Shown here: positions 8,262 to 33,175 of the stretch, in pieces
Layout of the letters: every line of letters starts with the position of its first letter
How positions within the stretch are numbered: the first letter of the stretch is position 1
IMG/VR virus record: IMGVR_UViG_3300026183_000012
Span: 1 to 40,047 of that record
Direction: 5' to 3' (one strand)
Origin: a virus
DNA: 40,047 bases
The notes under the pieces: model-generated
Seen by the model: the letters and a program-made list of their open reading frames with translations, nothing else
Database searches by the model: none
Told to the model about the DNA's origin: nothing
Translations under genes and position numbers: made by a program

Positions 8262-9983
8262 ATGGCAGAAAGTAAAAGAACATTCACTAGGGCTAAAATA
8301 AATAGGGATATTGAAGAAAAAATATTGCCTCCTGGTGAATATAGAGATGCTTTAAATATTAGCGTTGATTTTTCAGAAGATGGGAATGTAGGTGCTATTG
8401 AAAATTTGAAAGGCAATGAATTAATTGCTAATCAAAATATATATGGTTTAACTTCTGCCACAAATCCTAACGCTACTGTTGTTGGAAGTTATCCACATCC
8501 AGAAGAAAAAAAAATATATTATTTTGTTACAGGTGATAAAGCCGACGGTATTTTTGAATATGATATTGAAGCTAACGAAATAAACACTATATTAATAGAT
8601 AGTGTAAAAGCTTCTGTTGTAGAAACCATAAATTTAGCATTTGAAGATGCTGGAGTTACTGGGTCTGTAGCGCAAGATGGGTCTATATCATTAACAGCTA
8701 GAGTAGGTGCAAATTCTGTTGAAGCTATAACTGAAGATTTTTCAGCCAATGAAACCGGCAGTGCTGTTTCTAGAAAAATAACGGTCAGTTTAAAAGCGCC
8801 TAGCCCTTATATTAATCAAGGAGAATTGCTTATTGGTAGTATTACAGCATCCCAACCAAGTAAATTAGCACCTGAGGTTATAACTAAAAATATTGTTTCT
8901 AAAACAGAAACAACTGCCACATTATTGGGTTCATTAACTAATAATAGCGTTGGAGTTACGGCACAGGGATTTTATTATGGCTACAATACCGGCGGAACTG
9001 CATTAACAATTAATGAATTAAAAACCGGTGGCGCGGGGATTACAAATCTTTCAACATCAGTTACGCCTATAAAAAATAATTTTACAGCAGATATAACTTC
9101 ATTGCCATCTTCTAAATTAATAAGCTATGCAGCTTTTGCAACAAATTCTGTTGGGACTACAGATGGATCTGTTTTAACTTTTACAACAGATACGCCACCT
9201 CCTATTAACAGAATAAGTGGTACTGAATATGTTGTTGTGCCTGTTATAGAAGACACGGTTTCGGGTAATTTAACAGATGAGGTAGATAATAGAAATGTGG
9301 GTTACGGAAGTTTTTTCAAAACCAGCGGAGACTGTTATTTAAATATTTCTGCGCCAGCCTCTGATGGGGTATATGCAAATGCCACAGATGTAAGTAGTCT
9401 GAGCAGTTCTGCAAGTTTTACTTCAACACCTTCTGGATTAACTTTTGCTTCTGCAATTAGCGGAGCGGTTGGCACAAGAGGTAATGTATATGTAGCGGGT
9501 TTTGCAGCTAACACTAGTTATGAAATAGGGGTGCCAAGTATATCTGGAATAACAGCAAAAACTATTAGAATAAATAATGGAACACCGTCTGGAACTTATT
9601 ATACATCAACTCTTAACTTAAATTTATCAGGGGTTTTTGTAGGTAAATTAGATTCAGGAGGCTATCAATATAACACAGCGCCCAACCCTTCGGCATCATA
9701 TATTTTAGGACCAGTGGCAGCGGGAGAAACTGCTCAAGCTATAATACCTTTGAATAATTTAAACACTTTATTAACAGCTGTAGCTGATACGGCTTTTAAG
9801 TCTTCTTTTGATCCTGAAAATTTAACGGTAACAGTTACTGGAAAAACAGAAGGGACAGATTTTGATTATTACGTTGAAGATAGTTCTACAGCAATGTTTG
9901 GAATAGTGCCTGGAATAATTTTTGTAGGTACACCAGAATTGCTTGGATCAACGCCTACTGTAAATATAACATATACACCATAA
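8262..9983 (+). CDS. Tail (muzzle-like) protein, N-terminal core piece plus Ig-like module
   Basis: The first 110 residues or so carry the conserved opening I associate with large podovirus tail-tip or muzzle proteins: RDIEEKILPPGEYRDALNIS, then VGAIENLKGNE and a strand pair with KIYYFVTGDKADGIFEYDI. After a beta-rich linker, residues about 205-313 form one Fn3/Ig-like module. It has AQGFYYG (G236) and the closing strand SYAAFATNSVGTT, and ends in FTTDTPPP. Residues 340-573 are Ser/Thr/Gly-rich beta sequence of unknown fold. The frame then ends and a new ORF starts in the same TAATG. The product (573 residues) therefore looks like an N-terminal core plus appended surface domains, with the rest of the core encoded downstream. 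Function is inferred as tail structure and surface contact. Confidence 0.55.
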   Translation: MAESKRTFTRAKINRDIEEKILPPGEYRDALNISVDFSEDGNVGAIENLKGNELIANQNIYGLTSATNPNATVVGSYPHPEEKKIYYFVTGDKADGIFEYDIEANEINTILIDSVKASVVETINLAFEDAGVTGSVAQDGSISLTARVGANSVEAITEDFSANETGSAVSRKITVSLKAPSPYINQGELLIGSITASQPSKLAPEVITKNIVSKTETTATLLGSLTNNSVGVTAQGFYYGYNTGGTALTINELKTGGAGITNLSTSVTPIKNNFTADITSLPSSKLISYAAFATNSVGTTDGSVLTFTTDTPPPINRISGTEYVVVPVIEDTVSGNLTDEVDNRNVGYGSFFKTSGDCYLNISAPASDGVYANATDVSSLSSSASFTSTPSGLTFASAISGAVGTRGNVYVAGFAANTSYEIGVPSISGITAKTIRINNGTPSGTYYTSTLNLNLSGVFVGKLDSGGYQYNTAPNPSASYILGPVAAGETAQAIIPLNNLNTLLTAVADTAFKSSFDPENLTVTVTGKTEGTDFDYYVEDSSTAMFGIVPGIIFVGTPELLGSTPTVNITYTP

Positions 9984-10231
9984 TGGCAAATATAACTTTA
10001 TATCCAGATAGCGAAATAAATGTAAAAACTATTTTTACACCAAGCTCAAATATTAGAATAGATTCTATTGAAAATAAATATAATTTAAATATTAATTTTT
10101 CAGAAGGCGACATAATAAATGCTGGAACGGAACTATATACAGAGGATTTATTAAATATAGATAGCCTTGAAAAAATCAATAATATAAGGCAAAATGATGG
10201 CTTTGTAGTTGTAGAATATACAGAAATATAA
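9983..10231 (+). CDS. Small tail-associated protein, possible core fragment
   Basis: This 82-residue protein starts in the preceding stop (TAATG) and ends two bases before the next ATG. It is acidic and beta-rich, with alternating hydrophobic residues and Asn/Ile-rich composition (NIRIDSIENKYNLNINFSEGD). No signal peptide or membrane segment is visible. Its exact fit between two ORFs that both begin with core-like tail sequence suggests it belongs to the same assembly, either as a piece of the divided tail protein or as a small stabilising subunit. It is not recognised as a family, and its function is unknown. Confidence 0.5.
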   Translation: MANITLYPDSEINVKTIFTPSSNIRIDSIENKYNLNINFSEGDIINAGTELYTEDLLNIDSLEKINNIRQNDGFVVVEYTEI

Positions 10232-10233
10232 TT

Positions 10234-13200
10234 ATGGCAAGTAAAATTTTAAATTTTAGTCCAAATAGATTAATTACTGGGATCAACATAGTTGATAACA
10301 TGCTATTTTATACCGACGGGGAAAATGAGCCTAAAAAAATAAATATTGAAAAGTTTAGAGGCACAGCAACTACTGGTGAATTTAAAGACATTCCAGTAGA
10401 TCATTCTTCTGGCACAACTCATATTTATAATCGCGTATTTGAAGAAAGAGATATAACAGTAATAAAAGACCATCCTGCTATATTAAGTAAAAAAGCAGAA
10501 ACAATTACTTTAAATGAAAATTTTGGCACTGGAGATGGCGACTTAGTTATAGACGAAGTGTTAAATGATTCAGATTTAGAAATAATAAATAGTGATAACA
10601 CAAAAGCGGAAAATCCTTCCTCTGGGGTTGTTTCTTTGATTATTGAAGGTAATTCTTTAGATGGGCTTGAAATGTCTGCTGAGTCTGATTTTGGAAAAAA
10701 TGTTCTTATAGATTCCGGCTTTATTTGGTCACAAACAGATTCTACTATTGAAGAATTACTACAAGGCACTGAAACAGGAACTGCTTTTGAAGTATCAGCA
10801 GAAGATATTGAAACAAATAATGGAAAAGCTAATACTAATTATATTTTAACAAAAACAGATACAACTTCACCATATTATAATGCAAATTTATCCGCAGGAG
10901 ATTTTTATGCTGCTTCATTTATAAAACTAAAGGGCAAAAATGAAAGGGTTTACAGCCCTGTAACTTATGTTGAGGTAATAGATAATACTACTTCTACTAG
11001 CGTAGCATCTGAAATTAATTCAAAAACGCCCACAAAATTAGATGAAGGTTATTTTGAATGGAAATCAATTGTAAAAAACACAGGGGGAATCGATCCTGAC
11101 GAAGTTGGTATATATATATCTCAACCAAGAATAAATACAAATGAAACTGCCCCTACTGTTGGAGAATTAATAAACAATGGAATTAAAATACAGGGTGAGT
11201 TTATTGATGGAGAAATAATTGTAAAAGACAAGCCTATACCTAATAAGTATTATTATTGGGAACCATATGTTATAAATAAAAACGGCACTACATATGGCAA
11301 TAGTGCTGCCTTAACAGACACGGCTTCTAATGTTTTTAAATATAAAAGTTTTTTAAAACCGAATATAAAAACATTAAATGTTGTAGAAAGTGATTCCGCT
11401 GGTAATGTTTATTTACAATCTTGGTATGAAGGGAATAAAGCAAGTGTAATTAACGGTTCTGAAGAAGCTTCTGAAATAGGATTTTATTTTAGCACAGATG
11501 AATCTGAATCATTTGATATTTTAAATAAAACTTATTCTGGGAATGAATCAACTGATGGAACAAGCTATAAAGTGTCCGTTAGTAGTTATGATTTTGAAAA
11601 CGGGGGAGGAGCTAAATTAAATATATTAGACTATATTACATTAAAGCCCGAAGAAACTATAAATTATATTCCTTATATAGTTACTCCTACAGGGGAGTCT
11701 GTTTCTAGCATTAAAAGCTTTACTTTGCCAAAAGCTCCTGAAAAACCAGATTTTTATATAAGTAATTTAGATTGGAATTTAAAACCAAATTCAACAGATG
11801 ATAATGGTCTTAAGGATACTATTTTATTAGATTATGATTTAGATCTAGTAGGCATGGACGAGACTTATGATATTGACGATATTGGTATTATAATTTCTAA
11901 ACCCTCTACTGTTGAAGAAATAAAAAAATCAACAAATGGTATTTGGACAACAAAGGATCAAATAATAGATGATTCAAACTCCGTTTTAATAAAAATACCG
12001 CAAAACGATCTTACTTTTACTGCAAATGGTAATAGCACTAAGGTTGGTAGATACGAAAACACATTATCAGCAGAGCTGCCCAATGTAGATATTACTGAAT
12101 ATTATAATTTAATTTCAGAAAATATAAAACCACAAGAAGAAAATTGGTCTGCTATTGGCTACGTTGTTATTGACGGGTTGACTTATTATACAAATGTGGT
12201 AAATAAAAATAGTAATATTTCTAATAAAGATACCACTGTTAAATCAAATATTATAGCAGCTCCTAAAGTATTTACTAAAAATACCAATGAAACAAGCTTT
12301 TCAGATTTATTGCATAATGCTGTAACTCTAAACGGTAAATTACATTACTCAGGCAAAAATTTACAAGAAATTGGGTTTTATTTATCAACTACATACCCTG
12401 CTGGGCCATCAGGGGCTATAGCCTCTATAAAAAATGATGGTAGAAGTACTGATTTAGATTATTGGCTTTCTTCTGCTACAAAATATACAGCAACAAATAT
12501 AACTGTAAGCGATGCTAATACGCACCTTAACCAATCTTCAACAGAATTTTTAAATTTTGAAGCGGATGTTACCGGTTTAACAGCCGAAACTAGATATTAT
12601 TTTGTTGCGTTTGCAAACCCTGTGCAAACTACAAATTCAAAAGGTAATAAAGTAGTGGGCGGATCGGAAAGTTTAAATGATGTAGTTAATAGCATTCATT
12701 GGGGTAACGTTTTTACCGTTACAACACCAAAAGATGCTTCTGTAGTTACATCAGCTACTCCACCGCCAGTTGTTCGAATGCAGCCAATTGATAACTATAA
12801 TCATTTACGAAAAACATATGTTAACCTATATGGTAATTTTACTACTTTTTCAAAAGACTATAGCGTTACAACAAAAGGTTTTTATTTAAAAGCGGCTAGT
12901 GAATTTCCAAATCCTTTTGAGGACCAAGCTGGTAATGCAGCAACAATGGCAAGTGCAACAAATAGATTAAATTTTATTTCTCCTGACGTGAGAGAAAGAC
13001 GTTCATTTAGAGAACATACTTGGTATACTGGAGCTAAAGCGTCTATAGATACTATTGATTATTATGTTTCCGCTTATATAGAAGTAAATGAAACGGGCGA
13101 AGAATTTATATCGGATTATGTTTTGATAGAAAACTCTATAAACGCGCCTGTAGTAGCTCCGGAAATACAGTCTTTTCAATTAGCGCCACCGGTTTTAAAT

Positions 13201-14163
13201 TCAAATACATTGAGCAATAGTAGTGATAACTATAGCTCAGACACTAGCAAAGGAATTTCCGGAACAATAACGTGGAATAAAGAAGCGAATAGTGGTGGCA
13301 TACCAGAAATACTTAATGTTGGAGCTTATTATATAACTAAATCTGGGGCTTCAAAACCAACCAGTGTTACTGATTTTTTAAACGCTTATAATGGTACTGA
13401 GGGGCAAACTGGCTGGACACCGAGCTCAAAAATATTAAATGATGACCAGATGAATTTTTCGGCTGATGGTAAGAGTGCAACATATACAATACCATTGCCG
13501 GACAATAGCTTCCCAAGTGCTAACACTGGAAAAACATTTTATGCTGTAGGGTTTATAGAATATGCGAACGGTAATGTAAAATACTCCAATACTGTTGAAG
13601 AATTTTATATGCCACCACCGCCACAAGCAATTGCTACTGCAGATACTATATATTATAATACTAATAACGGAAACGTTATAGCGGTTAGAAAAAATGGTGT
13701 AAGTACTTTAACAGCGGAAGAAAGGGAGCTAGCCTACTATGGGTCTTATAATCCGCTATATATTGAATCGGTAATTGATATTTCCGCTCCTTGGTTTATA
13801 TATATCCAAATGGGGGGGTCTATATATACAGAAAAACCTTTTACGGCTGGCGGAGGATACGGTCAATCTAACTTTAATCAGGGGCTTGCGGCCTCAACCA
13901 CAAACAAAGGTGTAGGATATGCTAAAGTTAAAAAAGTAGGTAATACATTAAGGTTTAGCGCGAGGAGCGTAGGTTTAAACGGCAATCCGCTTACTAACAT
14001 ACCGTGGGTAAAATATTGGATTATTAAAGACTATAAAAAATGGTCTTTTTTGCAAGCATTAAGAAATTCAAGAACCGCTACAGCATTATTAGAAACTTAT
14101 GCAGAAACATTTATTGAAACAATTTATGTTAAAGATTCACCAGATGGCCCACCTCCTTATTAA
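10234..14163 (+). CDS. Large tail protein: core segment followed by seven Ig/Fn3-like modules
   Basis: The 1309-residue product opens with sequence I associate with the middle of muzzle-like tail proteins: LITGINIVDNMLFYTDGENE, PKKINIEKFRG and DITVIKDHPAI (about residues 15-90). The rest is an array of divergent beta modules of about 125-170 residues. Each has a strand with a G-aromatic signature, where the conserved Gly falls at 161, 292, 416, 551, 714, 882 and 1030 (for example EIGFYFS, EVGIYIS, TKGFYLK). Each also ends in a strand of the type Y-x-x-x-Y-(V/I)-x-x-(N/G) (for example YWEPYVINKNG, FYAVGFIEYANG). Pro-rich linkers separate some modules. The last 180 residues form a different domain with KKWSFLQALRN. 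Such arrays commonly mediate surface adhesion. The start 10234 follows the upstream stop by two bases. Confidence 0.6.
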   Translation: MASKILNFSPNRLITGINIVDNMLFYTDGENEPKKINIEKFRGTATTGEFKDIPVDHSSGTTHIYNRVFEERDITVIKDHPAILSKKAETITLNENFGTGDGDLVIDEVLNDSDLEIINSDNTKAENPSSGVVSLIIEGNSLDGLEMSAESDFGKNVLIDSGFIWSQTDSTIEELLQGTETGTAFEVSAEDIETNNGKANTNYILTKTDTTSPYYNANLSAGDFYAASFIKLKGKNERVYSPVTYVEVIDNTTSTSVASEINSKTPTKLDEGYFEWKSIVKNTGGIDPDEVGIYISQPRINTNETAPTVGELINNGIKIQGEFIDGEIIVKDKPIPNKYYYWEPYVINKNGTTYGNSAALTDTASNVFKYKSFLKPNIKTLNVVESDSAGNVYLQSWYEGNKASVINGSEEASEIGFYFSTDESESFDILNKTYSGNESTDGTSYKVSVSSYDFENGGGAKLNILDYITLKPEETINYIPYIVTPTGESVSSIKSFTLPKAPEKPDFYISNLDWNLKPNSTDDNGLKDTILLDYDLDLVGMDETYDIDDIGIIISKPSTVEEIKKSTNGIWTTKDQIIDDSNSVLIKIPQNDLTFTANGNSTKVGRYENTLSAELPNVDITEYYNLISENIKPQEENWSAIGYVVIDGLTYYTNVVNKNSNISNKDTTVKSNIIAAPKVFTKNTNETSFSDLLHNAVTLNGKLHYSGKNLQEIGFYLSTTYPAGPSGAIASIKNDGRSTDLDYWLSSATKYTATNITVSDANTHLNQSSTEFLNFEADVTGLTAETRYYFVAFANPVQTTNSKGNKVVGGSESLNDVVNSIHWGNVFTVTTPKDASVVTSATPPPVVRMQPIDNYNHLRKTYVNLYGNFTTFSKDYSVTTKGFYLKAASEFPNPFEDQAGNAATMASATNRLNFISPDVRERRSFREHTWYTGAKASIDTIDYYVSAYIEVNETGEEFISDYVLIENSINAPVVAPEIQSFQLAPPVLNSNTLSNSSDNYSSDTSKGISGTITWNKEANSGGIPEILNVGAYYITKSGASKPTSVTDFLNAYNGTEGQTGWTPSSKILNDDQMNFSADGKSATYTIPLPDNSFPSANTGKTFYAVGFIEYANGNVKYSNTVEEFYMPPPPQAIATADTIYYNTNNGNVIAVRKNGVSTLTAEERELAYYGSYNPLYIESVIDISAPWFIYIQMGGSIYTEKPFTAGGGYGQSNFNQGLAASTTNKGVGYAKVKKVGNTLRFSARSVGLNGNPLTNIPWVKYWIIKDYKKWSFLQALRNSRTATALLETYAETFIETIYVKDSPDGPPPY

Positions 14164-14173
14164 AAAATAAAAT

Positions 14174-17100
14174 ATGGCAGACAAAGTAAAACCTTTTGAA
14201 GAAATATTCCCATATATTAGTTATAGATGGAAATATGATGATGGCGAATATTCCCCTTATGCCCCGTTTTCGGAGGTCCAATTTGTATCTAAAGAAGTAA
14301 CAGATTACCAAAGTAGGTACGAAAAGGGGTTTAATGAGTTCATGGTTAATGATATAGAAAACATAGTTATTAATGGTATTCCAAAAGGAAGAGAAGACGT
14401 GGTAGCTATTGATATATTATATACTGAATCAATTTCTTCTACTGTATATATTTTAAAAACTATTGAGTTTGATTCAGGAAATAGAGGTAATGGCACTTTA
14501 GACGGAGTAATAATATCGAAAAGAGCTTTTGGATCAGCATTGCCTGATTCGGAATTAACAAGGCAATTTGATTCTGTTCCGCTAAAAGCTAAAGCGCAAG
14601 AGTTTACTGCTAATAGAATAATTTACGGAAATTATACATCAAAGTTTAATCAAGGTAAAAATGATTTAGGCGGGGACGGATTTAAAATAAAATTAGCAAC
14701 CGCAGCCCAGCCTTCACCTGTGTCTGGACCGTCTGTAAAAACGAACAGAACTTACGATGTCGGAGTTGTTTACATGGATAAATACGGAAGGCAAGGGAAT
14801 GTGTTAACTCAAGCTACGGGCAATAACTCAGAAAATTCTTCATTAATAAAAACTAATTTTACGTATGGCTCTAGAATTAAACTAGCGGCAACAATAAATA
14901 GCCAAGCACCATCTTGGGCGGAGTATTATAAATATTATATAAAAGACGTTGGTACAGATTTTTATAATATGACATGCTTCAATACGTATTTGGACGGAGA
15001 AGAGGGTGACACAGAAGGCGCTAATATTTATTTGCAATTTGACTCTAAAGATAGAAATAAAATAACGGAAGATTCTTTTTTAATACCAAGGAGAAACGCT
15101 TTTAATACTACAAAAGGAGATGCTATAACTGAATTTTTAAGAATACCTATATTAGACATTGAAAATGAAGCTCCTGAGGTTGTTAAAAATCAAATAGTAG
15201 AACGAGATGCTATAAAAGTTTTTACTATGCGCGACGATAATGCTGAGGTTATTACAAGTTTTACTGATAATACGGTAATCAATATACCAACCGCTGGAGG
15301 AGCAAGTAATACTGTTTTTTATATTAAAGATAAAAATGTAACCTGGGACGGCCAAGCTTTTATAAGTCAAATTAATAAATACATAAATAGCCAAAATGGT
15401 AGTGTAACTTTTAATAGTAAAGAAACGCCTGTTTCTACTATACAAACAGTTGATTTCACTGGTTTTTCTGAGCCGCTGGCTTTGCAGCTTGTTAAAGGGG
15501 ATAATACAACAGATAAAGTTTTAGTTACAGAAATGGTATATAGTCTAATGACTGGTGCCGGAGCTACAGGTCAACGTAACGCTTTTAAAATTACCATTGG
15601 AGGAAGACTGGACGATAATAGTTCTTTAACGACTGATATTGGATTTGCTACAAGTGGGGATAATACAGTCCCTGCTGATTTTACTTTGAATAACGATTCA
15701 GAAATAAAATTTTATAAGCTTGGATTATCTGAGCAAGGACAAAATAAACTAAAAGGATCATTTTTTGTAAAAGTACCAAGAAAAACTGATGGAACAACGT
15801 TTACAGCTATACCGATAGGCCAAACAGAACTAGATGAAGAAGGTAACGTAGAAACGTTAAAAGCTTTTGATTTTGAGACTGAACCTAATGATGACTCTAA
15901 TCTTAATTTATATTGGGAAAGCGCAAAAGCATTTAGTGTAGATGAAGACCATGGCAAACTTAATATAATACCTTGGACAAATTGTATTGCTACAGTTGGC
16001 GGAAATAATAATAAAATTTATTTAGAATCAATTAATATTCAAGATAAATTTAATTCTGCATCTATTGTTAAAGGAATACGTGTAAATACACCCGAGGCTA
16101 ATTATGCGCAAGAGACTAGAAAGCAAGGTTTGATATTTTCAGGTTTGTATAATTCAAGAACTGGTATAAATGAATTAAATAAATTTAATTTAACAGACGG
16201 CATTACAAAAGAATTAGAGCCAAACTACGGTGGTATTCAAAAGCTTCATGCTTTAGATACAAATTTAATATCTTTTAACGAAGATAAAATATTTAAAATA
16301 CTAGCTGACAAAGATGCTTTATTTAATGCCGATGAAGGGGTTAACGTTACGGCAACCAATTTAGTACTAGGGCAGGCAATGTCATTCCAAGGAGAATATG
16401 GCATAAGCACACATCCTGAATCTTTTGCTACTTTTGGCAATAATATTTATTTTACTGACGCAAAAAGAGGAGTTGTTATGCAATTGACTCCTGCTAATGG
16501 GCAGTTGTTTGCGATTAGCTCCATTGGTATGTCAAACTTTTTTAGAGATAGGCTTGGTGCTTTAAATGCTAATGCGAAGCTCATAGGAGCTTACGATGGG
16601 TACAAAAAGCAATATGTATTATCATTACAAGGGTATGATGAAACGGCGGCCTCTATTGGCTCCGAATCAATCCCTGACGAAACATCTAACTTGACTATAG
16701 GTTATAGCTTAAGCGCCCAATCATGGGTTTCAAGGTATAGTTTTATTCCAGAAACAGGAGTTACATTAAATAATAAATTTTATACATTTAAAAACGGTAA
16801 AATATATTTGCACAATTCAGATACAGCTGATAGAAATAATTTCTACGGAACAGCCTATGATTCTCAGGTGCAAGTTATATTTAATGACAACCCCACATAT
16901 GTTTCAGACTGGTTATCTTTAAATTATCAAGGCGATGAAGGCTGGGAAGCTTCTGAAATAATTGGTGATCAAGATAGTATATACAATATTAGTAGTGTAC
17001 GCTTACTTGATTCAGAAGAAGTTGGATTCCTAGGATGGTTTTTAAAAGAAGGTAAATATCACGGTGCTATTGTTGGAACACAGCCTGTGTATATAATTGA

Positions 17101-17278
17101 TCCTTCAGCAACCGAGCCTGGATCAAATGGTTTTTGGCCATTAATACAAGATGGTTCAAATACGCAAGATATTTCAGGAACTAAAGGATTTTTTCAAAAA
17201 ACTAGATTTAAAAATTCAGCAACTACAAAGAAAGAATTATTTGCTGTAAGTTCAGAATATTACATTAGTCAATCTTAA
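14174..17278 (+). CDS. Tail (muzzle or tube-like) structural protein, main core
   Basis: This protein of 1034 residues begins almost at once with FEEIFPYISYRWKYDDGEYS and the segment APFSEVQF (about 8-36). This is the conserved block I recall from the central part of large tail-tip proteins of crAss-like and marine podoviruses. The remainder is beta-rich, with a block near residues 755-820 (FGNNIYFTDAKRGVVMQL, then LIGAYDGYKKQYVLSL) typical of late conserved tail sequence, and a C-terminal end without a membrane segment. No Ig-like modules were noticed here. It would form the main body of the short tail. Three ORFs upstream (8262-14163) carry what appear to be the preceding parts of the same core. 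Ten bases separate it from the previous stop. Confidence 0.6.
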   Translation: MADKVKPFEEIFPYISYRWKYDDGEYSPYAPFSEVQFVSKEVTDYQSRYEKGFNEFMVNDIENIVINGIPKGREDVVAIDILYTESISSTVYILKTIEFDSGNRGNGTLDGVIISKRAFGSALPDSELTRQFDSVPLKAKAQEFTANRIIYGNYTSKFNQGKNDLGGDGFKIKLATAAQPSPVSGPSVKTNRTYDVGVVYMDKYGRQGNVLTQATGNNSENSSLIKTNFTYGSRIKLAATINSQAPSWAEYYKYYIKDVGTDFYNMTCFNTYLDGEEGDTEGANIYLQFDSKDRNKITEDSFLIPRRNAFNTTKGDAITEFLRIPILDIENEAPEVVKNQIVERDAIKVFTMRDDNAEVITSFTDNTVINIPTAGGASNTVFYIKDKNVTWDGQAFISQINKYINSQNGSVTFNSKETPVSTIQTVDFTGFSEPLALQLVKGDNTTDKVLVTEMVYSLMTGAGATGQRNAFKITIGGRLDDNSSLTTDIGFATSGDNTVPADFTLNNDSEIKFYKLGLSEQGQNKLKGSFFVKVPRKTDGTTFTAIPIGQTELDEEGNVETLKAFDFETEPNDDSNLNLYWESAKAFSVDEDHGKLNIIPWTNCIATVGGNNNKIYLESINIQDKFNSASIVKGIRVNTPEANYAQETRKQGLIFSGLYNSRTGINELNKFNLTDGITKELEPNYGGIQKLHALDTNLISFNEDKIFKILADKDALFNADEGVNVTATNLVLGQAMSFQGEYGISTHPESFATFGNNIYFTDAKRGVVMQLTPANGQLFAISSIGMSNFFRDRLGALNANAKLIGAYDGYKKQYVLSLQGYDETAASIGSESIPDETSNLTIGYSLSAQSWVSRYSFIPETGVTLNNKFYTFKNGKIYLHNSDTADRNNFYGTAYDSQVQVIFNDNPTYVSDWLSLNYQGDEGWEASEIIGDQDSIYNISSVRLLDSEEVGFLGWFLKEGKYHGAIVGTQPVYIIDPSATEPGSNGFWPLIQDGSNTQDISGTKGFFQKTRFKNSATTKKELFAVSSEYYISQS

Positions 17279-32120: not shown

Positions 32121-32403
32121 TTGAATAGTTTGTTGTCCAATACTCTGGCTCTGGATATGAAGAAATTAATTTAGGATCAGTTACTTCTATATCTTTTATA
32201 TAGCATTCTTCAATTTCTTCGCGTAATGACATACGTGCTTTTTCAATATAATTTACAGCATCCATTAACTCTTCTTGTAGATGGTTAAGCCAAGTGTCTA
32301 GACCCTGGTCATCATCATAAAGAGTAACTCCATACTTTTTAAAGCCTACGTCTGATCGAGATTTTATTTTATTTACTACTTGTTGTATAATTTTATCACG
32401 CAT
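32101..32403 (-). CDS. Small MazG-like (all-alpha NTP pyrophosphatase-type) protein
   Basis: The 100-residue protein has the pattern VGFKKYGVTLYDDD, then LDTWLNHLQEELMDAVNYIEKA (seen here as two adjacent helices). I recall this from a widespread small phage family thought to be related to MazG-type nucleotide pyrophosphohydrolases. The EELMD motif resembles one of the two metal-binding motifs; the second half of a typical MazG is not visible, so it may act as a dimer or be non-catalytic. The C-terminal 30 residues are polar. It lies directly downstream of a gene with a full MazG-like domain and overlaps it by eight bases. Function is probably dNTP pool control or sanitation, by inference. Confidence 0.55.
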   Translation of the reverse strand: MRDKIIQQVVNKIKSRSDVGFKKYGVTLYDDDQGLDTWLNHLQEELMDAVNYIEKARMSLREEIEECYIKDIEVTDPKLISSYPEPEYWTTNYSNETKTK

Positions 32404-33175
32404 CTTTTACAAATGTTCCGTTAATCATTTTACCAGTTCTATTAGATATTTCATCATAAGCAAAGCTAATGCAATCTTCAATATTGGTACCGACAAGGTG
32501 GGCAAGATTAGTAAGAACAACAACGCTATCACCAATAGCATCAATAATACCTTCTTTATCGTTTTTAAGTATAGCTTGGGATAACTCTCCTGATTCTTCA
32601 TATAATTTAATTAGTTGTGTTTTAATATCGCCCTTATCATATAAGCCCCTTTCCTTAGCCCATTCTCTAATTAATTCAAATTGATCTTGGTGAGAATATA
32701 GTTTTTCTTTAGTAATAGACTCGGCAGTTTGGAACTCACCTGCTTCAGCCATGGCTTTATTATAAATATAACAAGTGCTTGGTCCAAATTGACTTGCATA
32801 AGAGTTGGATATTACCCATTCTATTTTATCCGACGCGTCTAATTTAAAAGTGCCAAATGGCGTTTCTATAACAAGGTCCGCTAAAAACGCGGCATTAAGC
32901 TCAGATTTTGGTATTTTAAAAGTTGTAGTAGCCGGCGATGTGGTATGCTTTTTCATTCGCTTTTTAAATAAATCTTTATAAGGTTTTATATCTTTTTTAT
33001 AGCCATAGGCTTTTTGTAATATTTGTTCAGCTTCAGAGGCTGTTTCAATATTTTTTGTTTCAAGCAATATATCGTATTCCCCATCTTTATAACCTTGTTG
33101 TTTATTAACGCGTTTTTTAAGATCAGTTGTACAACCTATTTTTTTTCCTGGAATGTGGTAAATATAATATGTCAT
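32396..33175 (-). CDS. GIY-YIG-like domain fused to MazG-like nucleotide pyrophosphohydrolase
   Basis: The 259-residue protein has two recognisable ends. Residues 1-60 read like a short GIY-YIG domain: YYIYHIPG, then KKIGCTTDLKKRV (Arg22 in the conserved place) and a helix with acidic residues (E44, E48, E50) where the metal-binding Glu is expected. Residues 85-150 are an unassigned alpha/beta segment. Residues 165-255 match MazG-like all-alpha phosphohydrolases, with LYEESGELS (E193, E194, E197) and DAIGDSVVVLTNLA (D212, D216). The MazG part would hydrolyse non-canonical or excess (d)NTPs. The GIY-YIG part could be a nuclease or only a nucleic-acid-binding remnant. The start overlaps the thyA stop as ATGA, which fixes it. 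Confidence 0.7.
   Translation of the reverse strand: MTYYIYHIPGKKIGCTTDLKKRVNKQQGYKDGEYDILLETKNIETASEAEQILQKAYGYKKDIKPYKDLFKKRMKKHTTSPATTTFKIPKSELNAAFLADLVIETPFGTFKLDASDKIEWVISNSYASQFGPSTCYIYNKAMAEAGEFQTAESITKEKLYSHQDQFELIREWAKERGLYDKGDIKTQLIKLYEESGELSQAILKNDKEGIIDAIGDSVVVLTNLAHLVGTNIEDCISFAYDEISNRTGKMINGTFVKDA

Follow-up and report, generated by a model that had tools for sequence, protein, structure and literature searches.

The locus

The window, by which we mean the whole stretch of 40,047 nucleotides analysed here (positions 1 to 40,047 of the IMG/VR virus record IMGVR_UViG_3300026183_000012), contains four consecutive open reading frames on the plus strand, which we call A, B, C and D. 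All four end in TAA, and a portal gene and two genes for adaptor- or ring-like virion proteins lie upstream of A. The ORFs are listed here with their parts, and with the evidence from which each part was delimited; assignments to muzzle blades and domains are by homology.

8262-9983, plus strand: A, an ORF of 573 aa
8262..8606, plus strand: core of A, the N-terminus and propeller blade 1 (residues 1-115), from PHROG_14478, the alignment to single chains and the AF2 model
8607..9980, plus strand: array of A, consisting of a beta domain (116-203), an Fn3-like domain (209-310) and an exchangeable tip (313-573), from the repeat HMM, the AF2 model with its Foldseek matches to Fn3/Ig chains, and the tip types
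9983-10231, plus strand: B, an ORF of 82 aa that overlaps A in TAATG and is found only together with a type I tip of A, from the B HMM, the tip types and dN/dS
10234-14163, plus strand: C, an ORF of 1309 aa
10234..10548, plus strand: core of C, propeller blade 2 (residues 1-105), where the LNFSxxNLITGINI and ITVIK blocks take up the single chain right after the A core
10549..14160, plus strand: array of C, six recognised Fn3-like domains and divergent stretches, from the repeat HMM and the cassette swap in contig L027
14174-17278, plus strand: D, an ORF of 1034 aa, the whole C-terminal part of the muzzle, starting with IG1, from PHROG_14478, PF25729 and the alignment to single chains

Elsewhere in the window, positions 32396-33175 encode a MazG-like protein whose N-terminus gives a T5orf172-type match.

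Homologues of A and D

Profile searches connect A and D to PHROG_14478, a virion protein family of 1474 residues. Residues 5-138 of A match positions 2-128 of this profile (E 1.4e-18), and D matches it in three stretches, the best of which covers profile positions 908-1202 (E 2.6e-89). By homology, D comprises IG1, blades 3-7, IG2 and the crass domain, with a putative crAss_MUZ_C domain (PF25729) at residues 886-930; D scores 26.7 bits against this family, whose curated cut-off is 27. For A, B and C, Pfam gave nothing beyond a single weak, chance-level match in C, and no match to C was found among the phage records.

The link to the solved muzzle of phicrAss001 is made by this PF25729 match below the cut-off together with a fold search of a homologue, not of a window protein. 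For residues 1-1200 of the single chain of Cellulophaga phage phi38:1, the AF2 model finds its top PDB match in 7qok_A, the phicrAss001 muzzle (E 1.5e-19); the model is weak overall (mean pLDDT 53.8), with the stretches of blades 1-2 and IG1 mostly above 70. Searching the PDB by sequence, with D and with the single-chain profile, found no muzzle, whereas the fold search did.

Where the single chain is broken

Relatives were sought among viral contigs and phage records with profiles of the A core, the C core and three parts of D. The A core, the C core and D occur in this order within one ORF in phi38:1 (gp97), Tenacibaculum phage Gundel_1 (gp60) and Flavobacterium phage elemo (gp22), as well as in most of the IMG/VR viral contigs among the relatives, and a further scan yielded single-chain loci only. 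The HMMs AN, CN, DN, DP and DC match in that order in the window and in its relatives. The initial annotation had stated that the conserved blocks of A, C and D follow one another within one chain of homologues, and this is the arrangement found in phi38:1, Gundel_1, elemo and many IMG/VR contigs.

When the window proteins are aligned to these single chains, the A core stops at the end of PVLVDT, and C restarts at LNFS..NLITGINI; C then runs past ITVIK, and D starts at the stretch preceding YRxKYxDGEYS. No core residues are lost at either junction, and the pieces in A, C and D correspond to successive stretches of a single homologous protein, as had been anticipated. In the AF2 model of phi38:1, four strands at 64-106 and strands at 122-149 are followed by IG1-like strands, while in the AF2 model of A beta sandwiches come after a sheet of four strands at 72-114. 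The propeller of the phicrAss001 muzzle has seven blades, with IG1 between blades 2 and 3 (PMC10172136). On the basis of the junction alignment, the modelled strands and this published layout, we place the first break after blade 1 and the second after blade 2, just before IG1, with the blades of the window proteins numbered by homology. Three conserved blocks do begin A, C and D, as initially described, but they are better identified as a predicted N-terminal piece with a single blade, a piece with the second blade, and the entire rest of the chain beginning with IG1.

Judging from the alignments, both break sites tolerate insertions, and the split clade described below bears its arrays at the same sites. 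In the single-chain relatives the gap at the first site ranges from 1 to 293 aa and that at the second from 32 to 1490 aa, the largest being an in-chain insert in L028, whose ORF has 3664 codons.

Distribution and phylogeny of the split

The split layout is present in 18 contigs (the window, L002-L016, L024 and L027), some of which are near-copies of one another; a number of loci come from a contig that was fetched more than once, and our counts are therefore of loci. A 19th contig, L174, shows the C/D part of the layout, with a D gene of its own that is preceded by an ORF with Fn3-like domains. This contig is the sole locus from a scan of cellular genome contigs; the MAG that contains it is labelled Woesearchaeota, but a phage contig placed in the wrong bin is the probable explanation.

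In a tree of D with 99 rows, the 14 split rows that have all parts of D group with full support in a single clade, which is nested within the single-chain rows. Because the split contigs form one clade within single-chain relatives, we conclude from the sequences that the split is a derived state of single origin in one clade of marine phages, and is not a sequencing error. The branch to this clade is long (1.54), and therefore the muzzle may also have undergone other changes. A 15th row labelled as split, L111, was rejected: its near-zero distance to the single-chain L084 marks it as a broken copy and an artefact.

Arrays, tips and gene B

The initial annotation had suggested that surface arrays might hang from the breaks, and Fn3-like arrays do sit exactly at the ends that the breaks make, at sites that take in-chain inserts in single-chain relatives. 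Using a repeat profile seeded from A 205-312, we find one Fn3-like domain per A protein and five to seven per C protein; the window has one in A and six in C (residues 145-244, 264-361, 402-497, 689-805, 854-961 and 1002-1120). A Foldseek search with the model of A matches Fn3 and Ig chains. No Pfam match at the curated cut-off was found for the Fn3-like array, and the repeat HMM found no such domain in the single-chain muzzles.

The tip of A is of at least two types. Type I occurs together with gene B, in 12 contigs, a set that includes L005 with its interrupted A; the B HMM likewise matches in 12 contigs. Type II occurs without B (L002, L003, L006, L007 and L012), and the tip of L024 is unlike either type. 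The type II contigs with a full D form one clade in the D tree; therefore they probably represent one event, and do not provide independent evidence that B serves the tip. The initial annotation had noted an 82-residue ORF between A and C. The ORF is there, but it matches no part of the single chains. We infer that B is a partner of A or C, with a probable role in the folding or binding of the type I tip.

Values of dN/dS are below 1 in A, B, C and D, a sign of purifying selection, although some of the dS values exceed 1 and are rough; the ratios are lower in the A and C cores than in the corresponding arrays in all four comparisons with the window, and for B against the window they lie at 0.23-0.30. 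Segment by segment, identity in the A and C cores tracks that in D and is about as high, while the arrays and tips drop away; the A of L005 was ignored in this comparison, being out of frame after about residue 203. Identity between the window and L027 is ~97% as far as about 10.5 kb, falls to about 69% within the C array and is ~96% again from the start codon of D. L006 and L012 differ most in the A tip, where they share 42% identity; in the A core and the Fn3-like domain they share 94-97%. The arrays and tips are thus swapped as cassettes. The stretch of L027 corresponding to 10575-14171 of the window carries a divergent C array in exchange, and the right end of this stretch is the D start codon.

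Translation signals

With a start-context matrix built on the starts of 25 other window genes, the starts of A, C and D score above all 159 internal ATGs, and that of B above all but 2. Across the split clade the frame relations between A and C and between C and D take all three values, and A and C share a frame in 10 of 17 contigs; this variation argues against recoding. The start contexts and frame relations thus support what had been proposed initially, that A, C and D are translated separately.

Interpretation of the split layout

We consider it likely, on the evidence above, that the four genes encode a divided crAss-type muzzle, in which a propeller would be made from three translated pieces, with free-ended, exchangeable binding arrays at the breaks. 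A would give the N-terminus and blade 1, C would give blade 2, and D would give everything else, from IG1 through the other blades to the distal domains; these three chains, encoded by adjacent and tightly packed genes, would come together as each subunit's seven-bladed propeller round the tail channel. Since the chain ends at each break and does not return to the core, the Fn3-like arrays could hang with a free end from blade 1 (in A) and blade 2 (in C). The arrays and tips, variable and exchangeable as they are, most likely bind the host envelope near the DNA gate, and six A arrays and six C arrays would surround this gate if the published sixfold symmetry holds here. The reassembly in the virion, the copy number or stoichiometry, the binding of receptors and the role of B are those parts of the scheme that we infer. 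We also lean towards a gate whose propeller consists of three separately translated, blade-bearing chains with exchangeable free-ended arrays, such that contact with a receptor could act on the gate.

It is important to weigh this against other accounts of the same layout. A and C might be independent fibre proteins, each keeping one muzzle blade as a mounting peg, while D closes a smaller propeller alone. We judge this improbable: it would suit arrays that are much larger than their cores, and the long branch to the split clade, but the A core, the C core and D make up exactly one single-chain complement without overlap or duplicate, the two cores show roughly the same conservation as D, or more, and D starts at the IG1 stretch with no added front segment to replace the missing blades. 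Tight packing, the TAATG overlap and the shared frame of A and C in the 10 contigs could also suggest that one product is still made, by programmed frameshifting, readthrough or splicing. Given that both frame relations take every value in the clade, that each start has a strong context and that TAA ends all four window ORFs, there is very little chance of this. Still closer to negligible is the chance that the stops are errors of sequencing or assembly, a concern stated with the initial annotation and one for which L111, as a broken near-copy of a single-chain locus, provides a case nearby; the same layout recurs in 18 contigs from different metagenomes, kilobases of array lie at the breaks, and selection acts on all the ORFs. 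The other concern stated there, that each ORF corresponds to a separate full-length protein in relatives, does not hold outside the split clade.

It is conceivable, though rather unlikely, that the split mainly serves recombination, with arrays exchanged and the core spared, and that the free ends are a by-product. The swap of the C array in L027, which stops at the D start codon, and the differing A tips of L006 and L012 speak for such a role. However, the inserts that single-chain relatives carry within the chain at these two sites are also highly variable, and therefore the split is not required for variation. A role in recombination is compatible with the divided muzzle and does not exclude it.

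Relation to known muzzles and propellers

The proposed divided muzzle resembles gp44 of phicrAss001 (PDB 7QOK) in the order of its blocks, in having IG1 after blade 2, in its putative C-terminal muzzle domain, and in its place after ring-like genes. However, gp44 is one chain, whereas the window has three chains and B, with breaks after blades 1 and 2 and Fn3-like arrays at the new ends. The length variation published for muzzles consists of insertions in the crass and IG2 regions (PMC10172136). The proteins phi38:1 gp97, Gundel_1 gp60 and elemo gp22 share homology in the core blocks and a similar gene order from portal to tail, but each is a single chain without a match to the Fn3-like repeat HMM.

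A propeller blade supplied by a different polypeptide is known from Sec13, with Nup145C or Sec31. These are cellular coat proteins that are not homologous to the muzzle, and they serve as an analogy of mechanism only. No report of a split muzzle or nozzle was found in the literature searched, which covered only a minority of subscription papers. The parts are of known kinds; what is new is the division of the propeller.

If the muzzle is divided as we propose, a structural gate protein can be split at insertion-tolerant sites between blades, and insertions can become free-ended appendages. Variable and swappable binding modules placed on the tail gate would make it possible to test whether host recognition is linked to the opening of the gate. 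An annotation that treats A, B, C and D as structural proteins with no relation to one another overlooks the machine that they would share.

Other interrupted muzzle genes

In Maribacter phage Panino (L031:10240-10300) the frame changes inside the D part of the muzzle gene; this phage was not counted as split, since an error could explain the change. In L005 (L005:4250-4400), A breaks off after residue 208, at a boundary between two domains, and resumes at another ATG 22 bases further along; this could be a third break, either real or an error.

Another break site, before the C-terminal muzzle block, is used in Cellulophaga phage phi19:3, ctfjg026 and L112. The muzzles of phi19:3 (gp120/gp121) and ctfjg026 are like that of the window in being broken, with the C-terminal block (D 841 on) as a separate ORF, but the site differs, and one chain still holds both the A and C cores together with the front portion of D. 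A literature search found no study of this break. The C-terminal muzzle block lies in an ORF of its own at L030:12266-12285, L034:12032-12609 and L112:15398-15444.
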